A stretch of DNA of 54,778 bases, from assembly GCA_016875405.1 (NCBI GenBank), contig VGRJ01000020.1:1-54778 (forward strand). The letters run 5' to 3'. Numbering within the stretch: the stretch's first letter is position 1; the number at the start of each line of letters is the position of its first letter. Below, in pieces: positions 7,404 through 20,908 of the stretch. The notes beneath the pieces were generated by a model. That model did not search any database. It saw only the letters and a list, made by a program, of their open reading frames with translations, and was not told the origin of the DNA. The stretch is from Deltaproteobacteria bacterium. Its GTDB lineage: Bacteria > Myxococcota_A > Polyangia > Polyangiales > Polyangiaceae. The position numbers and the translations under genes are program-made.

Positions 7404-8494
7404 GCGGCGCGGATCCGCGAGGCATGGACGCTGCCGACGACGAGCCGCTCGAGCCACCGACCGTCGAGGCCACCGACGCTCCCACCGAGGGGCGCGCCCG
7501 GTCGAAGGATCCCGCGCGAGCGCTCGTCTACGTGCAGAAGCTATCGAAGGTGTACGCCACGCGGCGGAGCTTGTTCCGTGCTCCAGAGCTCCTCCACGCG
7601 CTGAGCGGCGTGAGCTTTTACCTAAAGCCCAAGGAGACCCTCGGGATCATCGGCGAGTCGGGCTCGGGTAAGAGCACCCTCGCGCGCGCGGTCCTCAGAC
7701 TGACGGAGCCCACGCTCGGGCGCGTCGTCTTCGACGGACTCGACCTGATGGCGCTGTCACCGCGAGAGCTGCGGGCGCAGCGCCGTCGAATGCAGATCGT
7801 CCTGCAGAACCCCGCGACCGCGCTCGCGCCGCACATGACGCTCTCGGAGCTCGTGGCCGAGGGGATCGACGCGTTCGGCCTCGCGGCCAGCCGAAAGGAT
7901 CGGCTCGAGCAGGTCGTCGGCTACTGCCATCGCGTCGGGCTAGACGAGCGGCTCCTCGAGCGCTATCCGCACGAGCTCTCGGGCGGCCAGCGGCAGCGCG
8001 TGGCGCTCGCTCGAGCGCTCGCCGTCGGCCCTGAGTTCCTCGTGCTCGACGAGCCGACGAGCGCGCTCGATGTATCGGTGCAGGCCCAGGTATTGAACCT
8101 CCTCGGCGAGCTCCAGCGAGAGCTCGGCCTGACGCAGCTCTTCATCTCGCACGATCTGCGCGTGATCCAGCACGTGAGCGACCGCATCGGCGTCATGTAC
8201 TTCGGCAAGCTCGTCGAGCTCGGCCGCGCGCACGACGTCGTCACGCGACGACACCATCCGTACACCCGCGCGCTCTTCGACGCCCTGCCCGCCCGAGACG
8301 GGACGCGCCGCTCGCTTCCGATCGTCACCTCACGGGAGGCTCCCGATCCGAGCGCACCCCCGCGTGGCTGTGCGTTCTTCTCGCGTTGCTCACGCGCCGA
8401 GGCCGGGCGCTGCGACGTCGAGGAGCCGCCGCTCGCCGAGACGGCGCCACGCAGTCGGCACCGCGTGGCCTGCTGGTTTCCGCACGAGGCTTGA
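7400..8494 (+). CDS. oligopeptide/dipeptide-type ABC transporter ATP-binding protein (DppF/OppF-like)
   Basis: A 364-residue partner ATPase of the preceding gene. ATG overlaps the upstream TGA (ATGA); the frame is open further upstream but that is not coding. It has Walker A GESGSGKST at about 85-93, signature LSGGQ at 193-197, Walker B FLVLDE at 213-218, and the C-terminal HPYTRALFDALP region with the Cys motif CAFFSRCSRAEAGRC. A roughly 40-residue acidic N-terminal extension is longer than in typical OppF. It would form a heterodimeric ATPase with the DppD-like subunit. Confidence 0.9.
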   Translation: MSGADPRGMDAADDEPLEPPTVEATDAPTEGRARSKDPARALVYVQKLSKVYATRRSLFRAPELLHALSGVSFYLKPKETLGIIGESGSGKSTLARAVLRLTEPTLGRVVFDGLDLMALSPRELRAQRRRMQIVLQNPATALAPHMTLSELVAEGIDAFGLAASRKDRLEQVVGYCHRVGLDERLLERYPHELSGGQRQRVALARALAVGPEFLVLDEPTSALDVSVQAQVLNLLGELQRELGLTQLFISHDLRVIQHVSDRIGVMYFGKLVELGRAHDVVTRRHHPYTRALFDALPARDGTRRSLPIVTSREAPDPSAPPRGCAFFSRCSRAEAGRCDVEEPPLAETAPRSRHRVACWFPHEA

Positions 8495-12630: not shown

Positions 12631-13530
12631 ATGCGCGGGCCGCACCTGCTCGTTCATGGCGACGCGCTCGCCACCCTCGCTGACCTTCCGGCCGGCGAGG
12701 CGCTCGACCTCGTGTACCTCGATCCGCCCTACGGCGTCGGAGCCGTCATGGCGATGCGCGAGCGGCCGGGTGAGGCGCGCGGGCGTCGGCACCGGACGAG
12801 CGGGCGGGCGGCGTACGTCGACGGCCGCGACGTCGACGCGCTCCTCGCGATGCTCGAGCCGGTCCTCGCTGGGTGCCGCGACCGCATGAGCGAGACTGCG
12901 TCTCTCTACCTTCACATGGACTGGCGCGCCGTTCACGAAGCGAAGGTCACGGCCGATCGAGTGTTCGGGCGACGCGCATTCGTCGGCGAGGTCATCTGGA
13001 CGCCAGGCAACGGCAGCCGCGGCGCGCGCGGCTTCGCGGTGACGCACCAGACGCTGCTCGTCTACGCGCGAGACGATCGCAAGCGCGCCCGTCATCGGGT
13101 GGACCATCCGCTGCTCCGTGAGCCCTACGCACCCACGAGCCGCGAGATGCACTTCACCAAGGTCGACGCGGACGGGCGAACCTTCCGGGAGCGCGTCGTC
13201 GCGGGGAAGACCTACCGCTACTACGCCGACGAAGGGCGACGACTCGGGAGCGTCTGGACCGACATCCCCGCGATGACCGCGAACACGCCGCTCCGTCGCG
13301 AGGCAACGGGCTATCCGACGCAGAAGCCCGAGCGGCTCCTCGAGCGGATCGTTCGGGCTACCACGCTCGAGGGCGACACGGTGGCAGACCCGATGTGCGG
13401 CAGCGGCACCACGCTGCTCGTCGCCGCGCGGCTCGGCCGCCGCTTCATCGGCGGCGACGCGAGCGCGGTCGCGATCGAGACCGCGAGGCGGCGCCTCGAC
13501 GCGGCCGGGGTCGCGTATCAGGCTCGTTGA
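12631..13530 (+). CDS. site-specific DNA methyltransferase, DPPY beta class, orphan
   Basis: A 299-residue amino-methyltransferase (N6-adenine or N4-cytosine) acting on DNA with S-adenosylmethionine. DPPY is at residues 31-34 and lies ahead of the cofactor-binding motif DPMCGSGTT (253-261). The signature TQKPERLLERIV is at 230-241. This order marks the beta class, as in bacterial RsrI-like or CcrM-like enzymes. The region between, including WTPGNGSRGARGF and the Lys/Arg-rich centre, would carry target recognition. No restriction endonuclease gene adjoins it, so it is probably a solitary regulatory or housekeeping methylase. It starts 10 bases after plsB, suggesting co-transcription. Confidence 0.88.
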   Translation: MRGPHLLVHGDALATLADLPAGEALDLVYLDPPYGVGAVMAMRERPGEARGRRHRTSGRAAYVDGRDVDALLAMLEPVLAGCRDRMSETASLYLHMDWRAVHEAKVTADRVFGRRAFVGEVIWTPGNGSRGARGFAVTHQTLLVYARDDRKRARHRVDHPLLREPYAPTSREMHFTKVDADGRTFRERVVAGKTYRYYADEGRRLGSVWTDIPAMTANTPLRREATGYPTQKPERLLERIVRATTLEGDTVADPMCGSGTTLLVAARLGRRFIGGDASAVAIETARRRLDAAGVAYQAR

Positions 13531-13602
13531 GCGACCGCCGCGAAGCCCGCGGTTGACGACACATGTCGGAGGCTCGAACGCGCGCGTCGCCAACGGTACC
13601 TC

Positions 13603-13634
13603 TTGACAGCCGCCAAACCCCTCGGCTCCACAAT
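13603..13634 (+). promoter_or_regulatory. possible promoter elements upstream of the SPFH operon
   Basis: A perfect TTGACA (13603-13608) lies about 60 bases before the first ATG of the four-gene operon. The best -10-like hexamer, CACAAT at 13629-13634, is 20 bases away, which is too far for an ideal sigma-70 promoter. The 139-base gap before the operon is the only space for its promoter, so the element is worth testing but is weak evidence. Confidence 0.3.
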
Positions 13635-13669
13635 TTCCTCAGGCGTCGCCGTGACGCGGGGAGGAAGTG

Positions 13670-15850
13670 ATGAGGATCGCGGGTCAAACCGTTGAAGGGG
13701 CCAAGGACGACTGGGAGGAGCTCGCGCTGCTCTTCGCCGCTACGGTGCAAGAAGAGGCGCGCGGGATCGTGACGCAGGTCCAGGAGCTCGACGGCGCAAT
13801 GGCGCAAGCTCAGCACGCGCTCGCCACCTCGCAGGCGCAATACGAGGCTGCGCGCGCCGCGCTCCAGGCAAAAGATGTCGAGCTCGAGCACGCGACGGCC
13901 CGCTCACCGGGACCGTTCACCGAGTCGGAGAAGGCCCACAAGGCCGCCGCGGTGATTTGCCTCGTCGTTGGGGTCGTCGGGGGGCTCCTGGGCATCATCC
14001 CCCTCTTATTTGTTGCGGTCTTTGGAGTCATCTGGGCCCTTCACACGCGCGGCAAGCGCAGCGACGAGAAGGCCGCAAAGGACCGCGCCGTCGCAGGCTT
14101 GCAGTGGGAGCGCTCTCAACTCGAGGCGCCCCTCGCGGGCCTCCACCAGAGCTGTGAGGCCACCGCTGCCGCGATTCGCGGCCTCGAGGAGCGTCGGCGC
14201 GCTCTTCGACCGCAGAAGGTCGTCAAAGCCCTCGGCCGCGCGTACCTCCCCTTCCTGCCGATCGAGCTCGCCGGCTACACGGTGATGGTCGACGGGACGG
14301 GCGCGACCGCCGCGACCACGCTCTCACTGCCGGATCTCGCCGCGAACGGCGACACTCTCGCGCGCGTGCAAGACACTGTCGAGCGAGCGAAACGCACGCC
14401 CATCCTGTTGCGGCCCACCGGGGATGGGCCCAGCGCCGTGGACCACATCCACGGCGAGGAGCGAGACCTCGGCGAAGCGATCGACACCTTCGGTGAGCTG
14501 CTCGAGTCGGTACCGGTGCTCTCGGCCGAGGTGCCGCTGGTCAACGCCGACACCCCGATCATGCGAGCCCTGCGCGCGAAGGCCGAGGCGAAGAGCGCGT
14601 CTGGCGCGGTCATCCGAGGCAACGAGGAGGCGACCCGTACGAACCTCGCGCTCGTCCAGCGCTACACCGACAACATGCGGGGCACCGGGAAGAACATCGA
14701 GCAGACCCTTCGCCGAATTCGGGACGACCTGCGGACGACGCTGGTGCGCTACGGCAGCCTGCGCGCCGAGGCCGTCGAGGAGGCCCACCGAGCCGTCACC
14801 GAGGTGCTCGGACACGCGGACTACGCCCACGTCACCTACTACTGCCCTCGTTGCAATCGCGTCCCCCAGTACCTGTTCCAGCAGCTAGGCGTCGACATCG
14901 AGACGGCACATCTCGCGAACCCGATCGAGCTCTTGCACGCGCTGCAAGAGAACGAGCAGGCGCGCCAACGCATCGTGGCGGACGAAGGTCTCCTCGGAGA
15001 CATGTCGAACGTCTACCAGGGCATTCACGAGCTCGACGCCGCGATCACGAGCCTCAAGGCGAGCGTCCATGCGCAGAGCCTCACGATGGCGCAGCCCGAC
15101 CTTCGCGAGGTCCAGATCACCGAGACGCGCCTGCGCGCCCTCCTCTCGCAGAAAAACCAGCTCATCCTCCAGTACCAGTCGATCCTGCGGAAGATCGTCA
15201 CCGGAAATGCTCGGCCGGTCCTCGAGCTCTCGCGGCAAGCGCGCCTCCAGCTCGACCCCGACACCGGCGAGTGGGACTGCCCGCTGTGCGAGCTGCACGT
15301 CGACGATCAAGAGCTCGCGCGCATGGGTCGACTCCTCAAAATCAAGGACGAGCTCCTGATGCCGATGTGGAACGCCCTCTGGGCCGAGAAGGACGACTTC
15401 CGAAAGAGCGAGCTCTTCCGCACCAATGAGCAGATCCAGCGCCTCGTCGAGAAGGAGACCGGCGCGCTTCGAGACGTGGCCGAGCAGTACCGCGCCGACA
15501 TGCGGCCCGTGCGCGAGAACCTGATGCTGGCGACCACCGAGGCGGTCTCCGCGCGGGACAAGCTCGAGTCTGCCGTCATGAGCCTCCGCGCGCTCGGCGT
15601 CATCACCGAGGAGCGCGCGAGCGAGACAATGGGGCGGCTCGGCACGCAGACGGGCGGCAACCTCGACGAACACAAGAAGCGCGCCGAGGCCAAGGAGACG
15701 CTCCTCAACCAGGAGCCGCAGGCCACAATGAGCAGGCGCATCATGGCACGCGACCCGATCAACGTCCTCATGACGCCCGATCAGCTCTTCCGCGAGAGCG
15801 CCACCGACGCCGAGAAGACGTCACTCGGAGCGAAGGGAGCCGCACCGTGA
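13670..15850 (+). CDS. coiled-coil membrane protein with two separated CPxC zinc knuckles (SPFH operon gene 1)
   Basis: A 726-residue protein of no family I recognise. Order: N-terminal alpha-helical coiled coil (about 10-78), a hydrophobic hairpin or double membrane segment (about 91-125, ending before RGKR), a second helical stretch (130-185), a compact region, then long helices. Two knuckles, CPRC at 392-395 and CPLC at 537-540, are about 140 residues apart with predicted coiled coil between. They could come together as one split zinc ribbon. GGGGAGGAAG precedes the ATG (a GTG immediately before it is also possible). The stop overlaps the next start (GTGA), so it is coupled to the coiled-coil, bactofilin-like and SPFH genes. 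Most likely it is a membrane-tethered scaffold of a larger assembly; function unknown. Confidence 0.8.
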   Translation: MRIAGQTVEGAKDDWEELALLFAATVQEEARGIVTQVQELDGAMAQAQHALATSQAQYEAARAALQAKDVELEHATARSPGPFTESEKAHKAAAVICLVVGVVGGLLGIIPLLFVAVFGVIWALHTRGKRSDEKAAKDRAVAGLQWERSQLEAPLAGLHQSCEATAAAIRGLEERRRALRPQKVVKALGRAYLPFLPIELAGYTVMVDGTGATAATTLSLPDLAANGDTLARVQDTVERAKRTPILLRPTGDGPSAVDHIHGEERDLGEAIDTFGELLESVPVLSAEVPLVNADTPIMRALRAKAEAKSASGAVIRGNEEATRTNLALVQRYTDNMRGTGKNIEQTLRRIRDDLRTTLVRYGSLRAEAVEEAHRAVTEVLGHADYAHVTYYCPRCNRVPQYLFQQLGVDIETAHLANPIELLHALQENEQARQRIVADEGLLGDMSNVYQGIHELDAAITSLKASVHAQSLTMAQPDLREVQITETRLRALLSQKNQLILQYQSILRKIVTGNARPVLELSRQARLQLDPDTGEWDCPLCELHVDDQELARMGRLLKIKDELLMPMWNALWAEKDDFRKSELFRTNEQIQRLVEKETGALRDVAEQYRADMRPVRENLMLATTEAVSARDKLESAVMSLRALGVITEERASETMGRLGTQTGGNLDEHKKRAEAKETLLNQEPQATMSRRIMARDPINVLMTPDQLFRESATDAEKTSLGAKGAAP

Positions 15851-17025
15851 GCAACGGGGGCGGCATCACGCTGAGCGACGTGCGCTCGGAGATCGACCGA
15901 AAGCTCGGTCCGCTCGAGCGCGACATCAAGATTCTTGATCAACGACTCGACCAACTGGAGAGAGACATGGCGAACGTCGAAGGGGCCGTAAGGGAGATGC
16001 ACCGTGGCCTGCAGGGCGAGCTGAACCAGCTCCGCAGCACCAACAAGGAGTTGCTCGACGTCCAGCAGCAGACGAAGAAGATCACGCTCGAGCAGTTCGT
16101 CGAAGCCAACACGAAGCTCATGACCGCGAACGCCCAGATCGCGACGACGAACAACAACCTCGGCGTCATCAACGACACGAGCACGCGCGGCTTCCAAACC
16201 CTCGACGTCGGCATCGATCGGATGGCACAAGCGCTCGTCCAGACCGAGGTCATCCGCCTCCTGTACGAGGCGAAGGAGCCCACCGAGCGCGTGAAGACGT
16301 TCGCCTGCGAGATCGAGGAGCGCTTCGCGAAGACCGTCGAGAGCGTGTTCATGGTCCGGTCGCAATACGACCAGCTGCTCGGGACGGCGATGAACGAGTA
16401 CGACGCGAAGCTGCGCGTGATCGGGGAGCACATCTACCGGGTGCTCGAGGACGATTTCCAAAAGGCGGCCGAGACCCCGCTCGCGATGCCTTCGGGCCGT
16501 ACGGTAGAGCTTCCGCTCGCGCTCGACGACCTGCGGCTGACCGAACGTCGAACGGCGCTCGAGGCACGATTCGACAAACTCGGCGACGACCTCATCGAGC
16601 CGCTGCTTGAGGCGCATCGGTCCCTCGAACACACGCTCGCGTCGCAGTTCACGGCCCCTATCGAGGCGAGCGGCGAGGAGATCGCCTTGCCGGCTGCCCT
16701 CCGAATCGGCGTGAGCGGCGGCGTCGAGGTGCTCGGCAGCGTGCGCGTGGATGTCGAGTCCGCACCGAGCGGCCAGCGACGGGTCAACCTGAAGCCCGTC
16801 GGTGAAGCCAGCACCCGCGCGGCGATCGCCTCTCGGATCGAGCCCGTCGCCGCACGCATCAAGTCCGTCGCGCTCACCGCGGACCAGCGGGAAACGCTGA
16901 AGAAGACCCTCGAACGCCTCGGCAACGAAGGGCGGATCGACGCGAGCCTCGTCGGCGCCTACGGACACTATCTGGACATGCACGGGCTCGAAGTGGTCAC
17001 CAAGCAGGAAGTCAAGGCGCAATGA
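15847..17025 (+). CDS. coiled-coil protein (SPFH operon gene 2)
   Basis: A 392-residue soluble protein with no signal peptide or membrane segment. Residues about 8-75 form a heptad-rich coiled coil (SEIDRKLGPLERDIKILDQRL and following). A Thr/Asn-rich helical linker comes next, then a mixed helical domain and a C-terminal helix. No enzymatic motif is visible. The GTG start overlaps the stop of gene 1 and its own stop overlaps the ATG of gene 3, so stoichiometric production with both is likely. I infer an adaptor or structural partner of the membrane coiled-coil protein. Confidence 0.8.
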   Translation: MSNGGGITLSDVRSEIDRKLGPLERDIKILDQRLDQLERDMANVEGAVREMHRGLQGELNQLRSTNKELLDVQQQTKKITLEQFVEANTKLMTANAQIATTNNNLGVINDTSTRGFQTLDVGIDRMAQALVQTEVIRLLYEAKEPTERVKTFACEIEERFAKTVESVFMVRSQYDQLLGTAMNEYDAKLRVIGEHIYRVLEDDFQKAAETPLAMPSGRTVELPLALDDLRLTERRTALEARFDKLGDDLIEPLLEAHRSLEHTLASQFTAPIEASGEEIALPAALRIGVSGGVEVLGSVRVDVESAPSGQRRVNLKPVGEASTRAAIASRIEPVAARIKSVALTADQRETLKKTLERLGNEGRIDASLVGAYGHYLDMHGLEVVTKQEVKAQ

Positions 17026-18182
17026 CGGAGCGAATGCAAGGCGACCGCTTGGTCGTCACCGGTCGAAGCTCGGGGAGCCACTTCCCGCGCAAGCAAGAGG
17101 CGATTAACCAGCGCTACGAAGCCGACGGCACGACGAGCGCGGGCCCCTTCTACATCGAGGGCTCGATCTACGGCCGAGACATGCGCTTCCGAGGCCCCGG
17201 TGCCGTGCTCGGGCCGGTCCTCGGTCGTGGGGACATCACGCTCGAGCCGTCCGAGGGCAAAGGGCCGCAGCGCTTCCTCGGAGGCCTTCACACGGCGAGC
17301 GGCAACATCGGCTGCGCTGCGCGCAAGAGCGGCTATCGCGGCTCGCTGATGGCGTCGATCGAGAACACGGGCGTCGTGGTGCGCGGCGACGTGATCGGCG
17401 ACCAGGTCTCGCTCGTCGACGCCGTCGTCTTCGGAAACGTGCGCGGGCGGCGGGTCCGGCTCACGCGCTGCGTCGTGTTCGGCAACGTGATCGCCGAGGA
17501 GGGGGCGGTCATCGGCAGCTCGACGGTGATCGGCTACGACTCGAAAGGCGAGGTGCGCTTCGAGGGGCCGTCATCGATGATCTTCCCCATGGGTACGAGC
17601 GTCGAGGCGCCCGCGTTCGTCCCTGGCGTCGATGAGACCGGGCTCGAGCTCGGCTGCTCGGTCATGTTCCTTCCGGCGCTGCTCGCTCAGGGGTCGCAGG
17701 CGCTGGTCTTCAGGCCGCGGCTCGATACGACTGGAGCAGCGAGCGACAGCACGTGGCGGGCGACGGCCGAGGACCTCTCGACGGGCGACGCCGGCGTCTT
17801 GGGCTCTGGGCTCCACCCCGTCGACTGGGTGCAGCACCCGGTCGACACCACAGTTCGAAAGCTACGCGGACGTGAGGTCGTCGAGGAGCTCGTCCCTTCG
17901 GAGCGCTACATCATCAGCCTCGGCGGTCGCGCGCTCGATTTTCAGGCGATCGTCCCGACGCTGCATCACGTGACGTGGCTGTTGAAGACGGCCATTGAAT
18001 ACGACCACTATTCGCCGGTGAACCAGACGCGCACAGAGGCCGCGTGGCGGGAGCGTTGCCGACCGGACGAGCTCAAGCTCTTGCAGTGGGCGACATCGAA
18101 GGAGGCTCCATCGAAGGAGCCGACGACGAAGGAAGCTCCTGCTCCCCGGCGTCCCCTCGGCCGCGGCCCGCAGGAGGCTTGA
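17022..18182 (+). CDS. bactofilin-like beta-helix protein (SPFH operon gene 3)
   Basis: A 386-residue protein whose first half (about residues 40-185) is a run of short beta-strands separated by Gly and Asp: GPFYIEGSIYGRDMRF, then GVVVRGDVIGDQVSLVDAVVFG and CVVFGNVIAEEGAVIG. Hydrophobic residues recur every five to six positions as in bactofilins and other right-handed beta-helix polymer-forming proteins. The second half is a separate mixed domain (about 190-355) followed by a charged repetitive tail (EAPSKEPTTKEAPAP). It is longer than ordinary bactofilins (100-200 residues), so it is bactofilin-like rather than canonical. The ATG overlaps the previous stop. It could form a filament or lattice beneath the membrane for the operon's products. 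Confidence 0.75.
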   Translation: MTERMQGDRLVVTGRSSGSHFPRKQEAINQRYEADGTTSAGPFYIEGSIYGRDMRFRGPGAVLGPVLGRGDITLEPSEGKGPQRFLGGLHTASGNIGCAARKSGYRGSLMASIENTGVVVRGDVIGDQVSLVDAVVFGNVRGRRVRLTRCVVFGNVIAEEGAVIGSSTVIGYDSKGEVRFEGPSSMIFPMGTSVEAPAFVPGVDETGLELGCSVMFLPALLAQGSQALVFRPRLDTTGAASDSTWRATAEDLSTGDAGVLGSGLHPVDWVQHPVDTTVRKLRGREVVEELVPSERYIISLGGRALDFQAIVPTLHHVTWLLKTAIEYDHYSPVNQTRTEAAWRERCRPDELKLLQWATSKEAPSKEPTTKEAPAPRRPLGRGPQEA

Positions 18183-18185
18183 ACG

Positions 18186-19850
18186 ATGTTCGGATTCTTG
18201 AAGAAGCCCATCGCAGATCTCTTCATCGCGAGGCCCGAAAGCGCGACGCAGCAGATCGTCTTTCGCTGGCCGGACCAGAGCATCCCAAACGGGGCGAAGC
18301 TCACGGTCCGCGCCGATGAGTGCGCCTTGTTCTTCAAGCAAGGGGCGCTCGTCGGGCAGCTCGAGGCCGGCGCTCACGTCATCGACTCGGCGCACATGCC
18401 ATTTCTCGGCGACCTCATCGTCTCGCCGCTGACGAACGACAACCACTACATCACCGAGGTCTTCTTCATCCGCCGTACGGAGCACCCGTACGCGCTCGGA
18501 CCGGTGAAGCTTGGCACCTTTCAAGACCTTGCGTCGCGCCTGATGGTGACGCTCGGCTTCTCCGCGCAGTTCACCGTACGTGTGACCTCGCCGGAGAAGC
18601 TCATGACGCGCCTCGTGGGGATGAGCTCGGACGTCATGGGGGCGCTCGGGCAGTTCCTCGAGGGCCGCGTGCGCTCGATGCTTCAGCAGGCGGTCGGACG
18701 CCAAGCAGCGGCCGAGCCCATCCTGCAGATCGCGTCAAACCAGTACAACGAAGAGCTCGGCCAGGCCGTGATCGAGCGGACACGGGCCGAGTTCGCGAAC
18801 GACGGCATCGAAGTGACGCGCTTCCTCGCGCTCGACCTGCAGCTCGACGCGTCGTCCGAGGCACAGCTGCGGCAGTTTGGCGGAAAGCTCGCGGACCTTT
18901 CGGTGCAACGTGAGCAGGCCGACGTCGGCAATCAGGCAGGTTTCGCCGCGTACAACCTCGTCAAAGGCCAGGCCGACCTGATGCGCGGCGTCGCGACGGG
19001 GGCCGCGGTCCACGGGCTCCCCGCCCTCGCGCCGCTCGGAGGCGTTGGGCTTGGCGGCCCGATGCTGGCGGCCGCAATCGCCCCCACCTCGAGCCACGGC
19101 TCAAGCCAGCACACCCCGGCTGCCCCCGCGCCCCGGCTCGCAGGCGGCGCCTCCACGAAGTACTACCTGCGCGGGCCGGGAGGCGTCGAAGGCCCCTACC
19201 CTCCAAGGCAGGTCGCGCTGCGAGCGGCCTCGCTGAAGCTCCAGGCCGACACGGTGTTCGTCCGAGCACCCGGCGCCACCGATTGGGAAATCGGCGCCGA
19301 CATCCCAGATATCGCTCGCGAGCTCGAGAAGCGCCTCGCCCACGCTCCGGTAAGCTCCCCCACGGCAGCGGGGGTCGTGCCCTCACCGACGGATGCCTTC
19401 GAGCGCGCGCTCACGGTGGCCGTCGCCGACAAGGTGCTCACCGTCGACGAGCTCGACCTCCTCAGCATGCTCGCGGTAGGAGCGAACCTCGCAAAGGACG
19501 ACGAGTCCGCTCGGCAGTACGTCACCATTCGTGCGCGGGCGCTCGGGTGCGACGTCCAAACGTCTGCGCCGGCCCCAGAGCCCGTACCCGATGCTGCCCC
19601 ACCGTCAATGCCGCAACCACCACCCCTTTCAGCGAGTGCCCCCGGCGGCCCACCGCCGCTTCGCCTCGGGACGGTCTACGTCTACGACAACGGGATGCAG
19701 CGCACCGAAGGGCTCTCGGCCAAGGCCGTGGCGACGCGCGTGAAGGCCGCACCGGACGGGGTCCACATGGTGTGGTGGAACGGCGCGGCAGACTGGAGCT
19801 CGGCCGACGAGGTCGAGGCGATCCGCAGCGAGCTCGCGAAGCTTGGATGA
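18186..19850 (+). CDS. SPFH-domain protein of the YdjI/COG4260 type with GYF-like modules (SPFH operon gene 4)
   Basis: A 554-residue protein. It opens with MFGFLKKPIADLF and RPESATQQIVFRWPD. Residues to about 240 match the SPFH (stomatin/prohibitin/flotillin) family formerly annotated as virion core protein, exemplified by Bacillus subtilis YdjI. A Gly/Ala-rich hydrophobic stretch (about 265-300) follows, then a GYF_2/DUF4339-like domain (325-375, YYLRGPGGVEGPYPP). A TerB-like helical segment lies at about 403-453, then a Pro-rich linker (460-492) and a second GYF-like unit at the C-terminus (497-548, VYVYDNGMQRTEGLS...WWNGAADW). AGGAGG lies before the ATG, four bases after the previous gene. 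It probably assembles as a membrane-associated ring or microdomain organiser. SPFH and first GYF calls are strong; the TerB-like call is tentative. Confidence 0.85.
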   Translation: MFGFLKKPIADLFIARPESATQQIVFRWPDQSIPNGAKLTVRADECALFFKQGALVGQLEAGAHVIDSAHMPFLGDLIVSPLTNDNHYITEVFFIRRTEHPYALGPVKLGTFQDLASRLMVTLGFSAQFTVRVTSPEKLMTRLVGMSSDVMGALGQFLEGRVRSMLQQAVGRQAAAEPILQIASNQYNEELGQAVIERTRAEFANDGIEVTRFLALDLQLDASSEAQLRQFGGKLADLSVQREQADVGNQAGFAAYNLVKGQADLMRGVATGAAVHGLPALAPLGGVGLGGPMLAAAIAPTSSHGSSQHTPAAPAPRLAGGASTKYYLRGPGGVEGPYPPRQVALRAASLKLQADTVFVRAPGATDWEIGADIPDIARELEKRLAHAPVSSPTAAGVVPSPTDAFERALTVAVADKVLTVDELDLLSMLAVGANLAKDDESARQYVTIRARALGCDVQTSAPAPEPVPDAAPPSMPQPPPLSASAPGGPPPLRLGTVYVYDNGMQRTEGLSAKAVATRVKAAPDGVHMVWWNGAADWSSADEVEAIRSELAKLG

Positions 19851-19897
19851 GCTCGGCCCGACGGCGTGCGCGGTCCTCTGCGCCTGCCCGACGGCCG

Positions 19898-20908
19898 CTA
19901 ACCTCGTCGACGCGCGAGCCGCTCGGCGAGACGCAGCGCCGACACCATGCCTTCGTGCGAGGCGCGCCCCGTCCCCGCGAGGTCGTACGCGGTGCCGTGA
20001 TCGACGCTCGTCCGCACGATCGGGAGCCCGAGCGTGACGTTCACCGCCTCCCCAAATCCAAGCAATTTGCAGGCGATCGTCGCTTGGTCGTGGAGCATCG
20101 CGACGACTCCTTCGAACGCACCCTCGGCCGCAAGGCGGTAGGCGCTCTCCGCACCGAGCGGACCTTCGACGCGAGCACGCTGACGCGCGAGGCGCTCCTT
20201 GGCGAGCTCGACGCCTGGGGCGATGACGTCCCGCTCCTCTCGTCCGAGGAGGCCGCCCTCGCCCGCGTGCGGGTTCAGGCCGGTCACCGCGACCCTCGGC
20301 CGACGCACTCCGAGCGACGCGAACAGCTCGCAGAGCCGCGTCGTCGCGACCGCCACGCCTTCGCTCGACAAGGCCCGCGCCGCGCGCGCCACCGGGAGGT
20401 GGGTCGTCACGAGTGAGGTCGCGAACCACCCGGAGCCGCGCGGCATCGCGAACGCCATCACCACCGGCCCGGCGTCGAGCCGCTCGGCGAGGTGCTCGGT
20501 GTGGCCGCGGAACCGCCTCGCCCCACGCGCGCCGCTCGTCGCGATCGCCTCCTTCGAGACCGGGCCCGTGACGAGCGCAGCGCCAACCCCGCTCGCGACG
20601 AGGTCGCATGCGGCGTCGATCCACGCGAGCTGCGCTGCACCTCCCTCGGCGTCGGGCTCGCCGGGCTTCGCCGCGCGCGAGAGACTCAGGCTCGTCGCGT
20701 AGAGCCCAAGCTCGCCGCGTCGCAGGCGCACACGCTCATCGACGCGACGCATGCGCGCCTCGAGGCCGAAGCGAGTGCCGAGCCGCTCCAGAGACGAAGG
20801 ATCGCCGACGAGCACGGCGGTGGTGTCGGGGAGCGATGCGAGCGCCGCGAGGGACACCTCGGGACCCACGCCGCTCGGGCACCCGACCGAGACGACGAGC
20901 GGCTTCAT
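19898..20908 (-). CDS. pdxA: 4-hydroxythreonine-4-phosphate dehydrogenase
   Basis: NAD-dependent enzyme of the DXP-dependent pyridoxal-phosphate pathway, cytoplasmic. The 336-residue product starts MKPLVVSVGCPSGVGPE, the family's N-terminal signature. Metal-binding histidines are visible at TTHLP (His170), NPHAGEGG (His214) and LHDQ (His273). TGPVSKEA (114-121), GHTEHLA (135-141) and the end motif RTSVDHGTAYDLAGTG are also typical. The frame is open further upstream, but this start gives the conserved N-terminus. The gene is convergent with the SPFH operon (47 bases between stops) and follows a lipoprotein gene on the same strand. Confidence 0.95.
   Translation of the reverse strand: MKPLVVSVGCPSGVGPEVSLAALASLPDTTAVLVGDPSSLERLGTRFGLEARMRRVDERVRLRRGELGLYATSLSLSRAAKPGEPDAEGGAAQLAWIDAACDLVASGVGAALVTGPVSKEAIATSGARGARRFRGHTEHLAERLDAGPVVMAFAMPRGSGWFATSLVTTHLPVARAARALSSEGVAVATTRLCELFASLGVRRPRVAVTGLNPHAGEGGLLGREERDVIAPGVELAKERLARQRARVEGPLGAESAYRLAAEGAFEGVVAMLHDQATIACKLLGFGEAVNVTLGLPIVRTSVDHGTAYDLAGTGRASHEGMVSALRLAERLARRRG

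Follow-up and report, generated by a model that had tools for sequence, protein, structure and literature searches.

SPFH proteins occur in all domains of life, and the role of most bacterial members is unclear (PMC12005517, PMC13086221). In Bacillus subtilis, the SPFH protein YdjI requires the membrane proteins YdjG and YdjH for the formation of foci and recruits PspA (PMC8581546). The corresponding pspA-ydjGHI operon joins a band-7/SPFH gene with genes for membrane proteins, one of which carries zinc-ribbon cysteine pairs, and with a coiled-coil partner (PMC8581546, PMC9239133, PMC11237479). Band-7 proteins and the beta-helical Toastrack proteins have been proposed to act as sub-membrane assembly factors (PMC11237479). 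Here, we describe a conserved four-gene cassette built around a YdjI-type SPFH protein in a stretch of 54,778 nucleotides (the window) from a member of the Polyangiaceae (Myxococcota; contig VGRJ01000020.1). Although operons pairing a YdjI-type SPFH protein with a membrane anchor are a known kind, the composition of this one was not found in the literature searched.

The four genes, termed A, B, C, and D, lie in that order and direction on the + strand at positions 13670-19850. Gene A (13670..15850, +) encodes a protein of 726 amino acids (aa) with an N-terminal coiled coil split by a membrane hairpin, a CPxC...CPxC set of cysteines and C-terminal helices, and gene B (15847..17025, +) a soluble coiled coil of 392 aa with a conserved core, KLRxIGxHI; neither belongs to a known family. 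The 386-aa product of gene C (17022..18182, +) is predicted to form a right-handed beta-helix followed by a C-terminal hairpin, three helices, and a tail that varies among homologues, while gene D (18186..19850, +) encodes a 554-aa SPFH (Band_7_1) protein that continues into a GYF domain, a middle region without assignment, and a second GYF-like domain. The A/B and B/C junctions are overlaps of 4 base pairs (bp), GTGA and ATGA respectively, and a gap of 3 bp separates C from D, just as a preliminary description of this DNA had it when it proposed a coupled operon. A GGAGG resembling a ribosome-binding site precedes gene A at 13660..13664 (+), with a possible alternative GTG start at 13667; a simple scan for promoters and terminators returned no sigma-70-like promoter and no convincing terminator at the cassette. 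Against two relatives, the first, second, and third codon positions are changed at 0.22-0.37, 0.15-0.27, and 0.53-0.60, respectively, the typical pattern of constrained coding sequence.

Compared with the pspA-ydjGHI operon, the cassette lacks a match to PspA (PF04012), for which the four window proteins and eight B homologues were scanned against Pfam, as well as a match to the TPM domain. Its SPFH protein ends in GYF-like domains in place of the zinc ribbon of YdjI-type proteins, and the beta-helix C and the coiled coil B have no counterpart in the B. subtilis operon. As to the zinc-ribbon membrane partner YdjG, A has a membrane hairpin and four invariant cysteines and gave no significant match to zinc-ribbon families. 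The Toastrack systems also place a beta-helical intracellular protein, as a proposed assembly platform, beside membrane-stress proteins, and also do so without PspA (PMC11237479), but C is not fused to membrane segments; a Toastrack-type family was absent among the Pfam matches of C, a survey that included no dedicated Toastrack profile comparison. Operons of the type SPFH - DUF4178 - DUF350 - aminopropyltransferase (e.g., L028) likewise set an SPFH gene beside membrane-linked genes in one run, yet their polyamine-metabolism and DUF4178/DUF350 partners are not shared with the cassette. Archaeal Meth_adaptin ESCRT loci, putatively for membrane remodelling, also combine an SPFH protein with a coiled coil and a zinc ribbon (PMC10936438), differing from the cassette in their archaeal origin and in ESCRT and adaptin components that it does not contain. 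Neither the A-D composition nor any combination of SPFH protein and bactofilin was found in the literature searched, which lay mostly outside subscription journals, and within that literature the earlier statement that no described system has these components holds.

Seven more loci of Myxococcota, each complete or almost so, show this arrangement, with identities that fall as low as 25-35%. The order A-B-C-D is the same in L007, L009, L010, L011, L024, and L025, and also in L023, whose A is truncated at the end of its contig; a contig edge leaves only the C tail and D in genome G439, and in genome G249 the contig ends after A and B. The most distant of these loci, L011, belongs to another family of the phylum and is only 25-35% identical to the window copy. 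The prospect that homologues would prove scattered and never adjacent was not borne out, the order being the same wherever a locus is long enough for it to be seen. The four genes constitute one conserved, co-inherited unit, in an arrangement far beyond chance. Together with the missing PspA match, this upholds the earlier proposal of a distinct system that links a YdjI-type SPFH protein to a membrane coiled coil. L011, the most divergent copy, also contains an extra open reading frame of 123 aa between C and D (7436-7807); its product has a hydrophobic N-terminus and matches nothing in Pfam.

Carriers are few. By profile or protein searches, gene A was found in 4/189 and 6/379 genomes of the phylum and gene C in 5/379; within the family, C is present in 8 and B in 7 of the 108 genomes, and the named relatives are metagenome-assembled genomes of Polyangiaceae and Myxococcales. 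A scan of exact peptides of the window copy against contigs that included other phyla, a method that finds only close relatives, returned only close relatives. In the family, B, C, and full-length D were found in one and the same set of genomes (7-8/108), bar one copy cut at a contig edge. When loci are compared in pairs, the identities of the four proteins correlate with one another (Spearman rho 0.77-0.94) and show no correlation with those of an SPFH paralogue of the same genomes (rho -0.23 to 0.17), which argues for joint transmission of the four genes; this comparison covers few taxa and is open to hidden paralogy of the reference SPFH protein. Judged from these sequence distances, transmission was probably joint and partly horizontal.

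Protein D carries a Band_7_1 domain (PF13421; 18261..18869, +), matched at residues 26-228 with 53.8 bits against a cut-off of 24 and present in all nine D proteins compared. The first GYF_2 domain (PF14237; residues 326-374, 19161..19307, +) scores 21.2 bits in the window copy, below the cut-off of 25.8, and is matched in 9/9 members with a best E of 3e-11. The second GYF-like domain (19677..19850, +) emerged from the comparison of homologues, being undetected in the window copy alone, above the cut-off in L025, and present in eight of the nine proteins. The preliminary description of D as a YdjI-like SPFH protein with two GYF-like ends was accordingly right about the Band_7_1 and GYF_2 domains, and about the second end in the homologues, which the window copy taken alone does not reveal. 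A proline motif, PPPL at residues 489-492 (19650..19661, +) and PPP[LIM] or PPL in 8/9 proteins, precedes the second GYF-like domain; in L024, both the motif and the domain are missing. By analogy, this motif is a possible GYF ligand. A TerB-like match in D appeared in 1/9 members at E 0.0027 and was not reproduced in a scan of the isolated middle region from three members.

SPFH matches as such are found in 89/108 family genomes. Full-length D (705-905 bits) is present in all eight cassette-carrying genomes of the family and confined to them; every other match scores at most 188 bits, and nearly all of these stop at the GYF region or short of it. D is a relative, specific to the cassette, of the SPFH protein found in most genomes of the family. 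Since the genome of the window also encodes a solo SPFH protein whose C-terminal part has two motifs resembling zinc ribbons (G000:C2:48900-50400; L055 6950-8344), D is to be regarded as a specialised relative. SPFH matches that score like this solo protein occur in most family genomes, and the solo protein is a useful reference for the evolution of YdjI-type SPFH proteins. In two family genomes without a cassette, the SPFH match spans the first GYF domain (G442:C331, profile positions 18-381, and G198:C420, 47-381).

Among the four proteins, only A has a clear membrane segment by hydropathy, no comparable hydrophobic stretch being found in B, C, or D, which are soluble by sequence. The predicted hairpin (residues 88-128, 13931..14053, +), with a helix break at 105-110 in the structure model, corresponds to a strong hydrophobic segment kept in each of the seven members whose sequence extends over it. 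The cysteines of the CPRC motif (residues 392-395, 14843..14854, +) and the CPLC motif (residues 537-540, 15278..15289, +), namely C392, C395, C537, and C540, are invariant among homologues. The membrane segment and the motifs proposed earlier for A are thus real; the idea of two separate zinc knuckles fits less well, as the motifs lie 141 residues apart, so that any zinc bound would more likely occupy one Cys4 site. The motifs flank a helical hairpin in a low-confidence model, from which a single split Cys4 site appears plausible. PHROGs gave no informative match to A, Foldseek none against the Protein Data Bank (PDB) at E 0.001, and the best VIA rows (Z about 10) were generic long helices; a PDB sequence search returned no more than weak matches for A, B, and D. 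The copy of A in genome G249 (L043 980-3991) is extended at its N-terminus by some eleven repeats of the GPP[PTA]L type, which resemble GYF-domain ligands, and by acidic repeats after these.

Protein B is soluble by sequence and helical, with its conserved core around residues 141-197. For A, B, and C, scans with Pfam, NCBIfam, and PADLOC profiles yielded only weak matches of the coiled-coil or hexapeptide type. The AlphaFold2 model of C (mean pLDDT 81.5) consists of a beta-helix (approximately residues 1-216) with a beta hairpin and three helices behind it. In VIA-align, the model is closest to right-handed helices (Z 11.9, rmsd 3.3-3.6 across some 205 residues), whereas its alignments to left-handed helices of the LpxA type exceed rmsd 10, and C is predicted on this model to be a right-handed beta-helix. 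Foldseek against the PDB gave no match for C at E 0.001, nor did the PDB sequence search. Bactofilins are themselves right-handed beta-helices, and the likeness noted earlier between C and bactofilins stands for this general fold. It does not extend to the bactofilin family (PF04519), given that C is larger, has a helical C-terminal part, and gave a best E of 0.15 in one of five members scanned, with no member near the Pfam cut-off and an hhalign probability of 3.6%; the source genome has four true bactofilins elsewhere, and C is not among these PF04519 matches. Behind a proline-rich linker, three homologues of C end in different additions: a GYF_2 domain in the protein of L009 (8832-10235), a DUF6982 domain in that of L010 (12029-13555), and a domain without assignment in that of L023 (7843-9483).

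We give about even credence to the proposal that the cassette encodes a four-component, PspA-less, transferable membrane scaffold around the YdjI-type SPFH protein. In such a scaffold, A would be the anchor, as YdjG and YdjH are for YdjI: it would sit as a hairpin in the inner membrane, and its coiled coils and a single Cys4 metal site would lie in the cytoplasm. On the cytoplasmic side, D would oligomerise via its SPFH domain to give a ring or cage, its GYF domains holding neighbours together by contacts with proline-rich motifs, of which the PPPL of its own linker is an example, and B and C, the latter as a rod or plate, would serve structurally to cross-link, stiffen, or extend the assembly. 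No enzyme-type domain was recognisable in A-D with Pfam, NCBIfam, and PADLOC profiles, including nuclease, NTPase, and toxin domains, and the output is therefore likely to be mechanical or organisational; it may be to seal, support, or partition a stressed inner membrane. By analogy, envelope stress is the most likely occasion; it is preferred to defence since it is where the closest characterised relatives act, and since no effector and no defence-model match was found. The function in membrane stress or compartment formation remains an inferred one. A more far-reaching version, in which a GYF-linked SPFH cage, a beta-helix skeleton, and a zinc-stapled membrane coiled-coil tether make up an undescribed PspA-independent structure that spreads between myxobacteria as a cassette, seems to us rather doubtful.

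Several points weigh against the scaffold proposal. The structure model of A is poor (pLDDT 63, pTM 0.26), for which reason its Cys4 site and topology stay putative; the binding of PPPL by the GYF domains is argued from analogy; and no family match allows a function to be assigned to B. Carriers keep PspA elsewhere in the genome, and the cassette might feed the ordinary Psp response rather than stand apart from it. Its strong patchiness would be equally expected of a conflict or defence system, which keeps defence in play. Within the genus of the window, G000, G440, and G439 carry the cassette, and none was found in G164 (98% complete) or G438 (67% complete). The site it occupies in the window, between a methyltransferase gene and the gene taken as pdxA (13530-19898; L051, L052, and L053), differs within the genus, being empty in G439 (approximately 0.1 kb), filled by one esterase-like gene in G438, and by approximately 5.3 kb of ordinary lipoprotein- and repeat-type genes in G164. 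The G439 copy is relocated elsewhere (L026), and L007, taken as G440, has the right (pdxA-side) flank in common with the window and a different left flank. The cassette is mobile or easily lost.

This mobile-looking distribution, with a variable insertion site and absence from a near-complete genome of the same genus, is also what would be seen if an SPFH-centred membrane assembly sensed infection and disturbed the membrane as an anti-phage module. Band-7 and GYF domains are known in described conflict systems (PMC7159879), and the L010 copy lies 0.4 kb from a DpdJ/Lhr-type helicase gene. The defence role suggested in the preliminary description nonetheless gained no support from PADLOC models run against all four proteins, which gave no credible match (the best, LmuB at 1.3e-4 and 18.5 bits, being weak and of the coiled-coil type), nor from any effector domain in A-D. 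Neighbours are ordinary in most loci, and the searches made of viral contigs, phages, and plasmids contained no copy, with plasmid matches to D confined to the SPFH part; we hold an anti-phage role to be unlikely.

It is, in our estimation, decidedly unlikely that the cassette is an accessory arm of the ordinary Psp response, in which D would recruit an unlinked PspA with A as the anchor and B and C as adaptors. All ten carriers tested have PspA genes elsewhere, in line with the recruitment of PspA by YdjI (PMC8581546) and with the proposal that PspA-less band-7 operons use PspA encoded elsewhere (PMC11237479). Non-carriers also have PspA, however, so there is no specific association between PspA and the cassette, and no copy has a pspA match in the operon. 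The retention of PspA by carriers equally leaves unsupported the suggestion that a bactofilin-like scaffold has replaced it. A compartment or cytoskeletal structure of C and D (a filament, rod, or bounded patch) not related to stress, for instance one that positions another complex at the membrane, would agree with the predicted fold of C and with flotillin cages attached to a membrane surface (PMC11260169). Proteins with GYF and zinc-ribbon domains position complexes at the membrane in this way in myxobacterial motility. The GYF region of D weakly matches a chain of gliding motility protein X (PDB 7z3c, E 0.087). This PDB match falls short of significance, profiles do not place C among the bactofilins, and the cassette is rare and patchy, unlike a core structure; such a role strikes us as quite improbable. 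The PspA-less scaffold is the reading we prefer.

In the window, genes for a plsB-like acyltransferase and an N6/N4 DNA methyltransferase lie upstream of the cassette, and what we take from its sequence to be pdxA follows downstream on the opposite strand. The methyltransferase was considered as a fifth part and rejected, since it adjoins pdxA in three same-genus genomes without the cassette there and is missing from the other cassette loci over the DNA available; this gene at the variable site looks orphan. Flanking genes across the cassette loci are otherwise unrelated and mostly ordinary. Mutually related protein-kinase-like genes lie within several kb of four loci (L009, L011, L023, and L024), that of L011 being co-directional and 0.35 kb downstream of D; as such genes are common in myxobacteria, their presence may be due to chance. 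The helicase gene of L010 (3651-8168; G062), approximately 0.4 kb upstream of the cassette, scores 1547 bits to the PADLOC DpdJ model.

A compact, transferable unit of four genes, three of whose products have no known family, amounts to a defined and presumably complete set of parts. Such a set could be moved into a laboratory host, where it may reveal the means by which an SPFH assembly is anchored and its effect on the membrane. In the myxobacteria that carry it, the cassette would show that a YdjI-type SPFH protein can be coupled with a beta-helix scaffold in an operon that lacks PspA.

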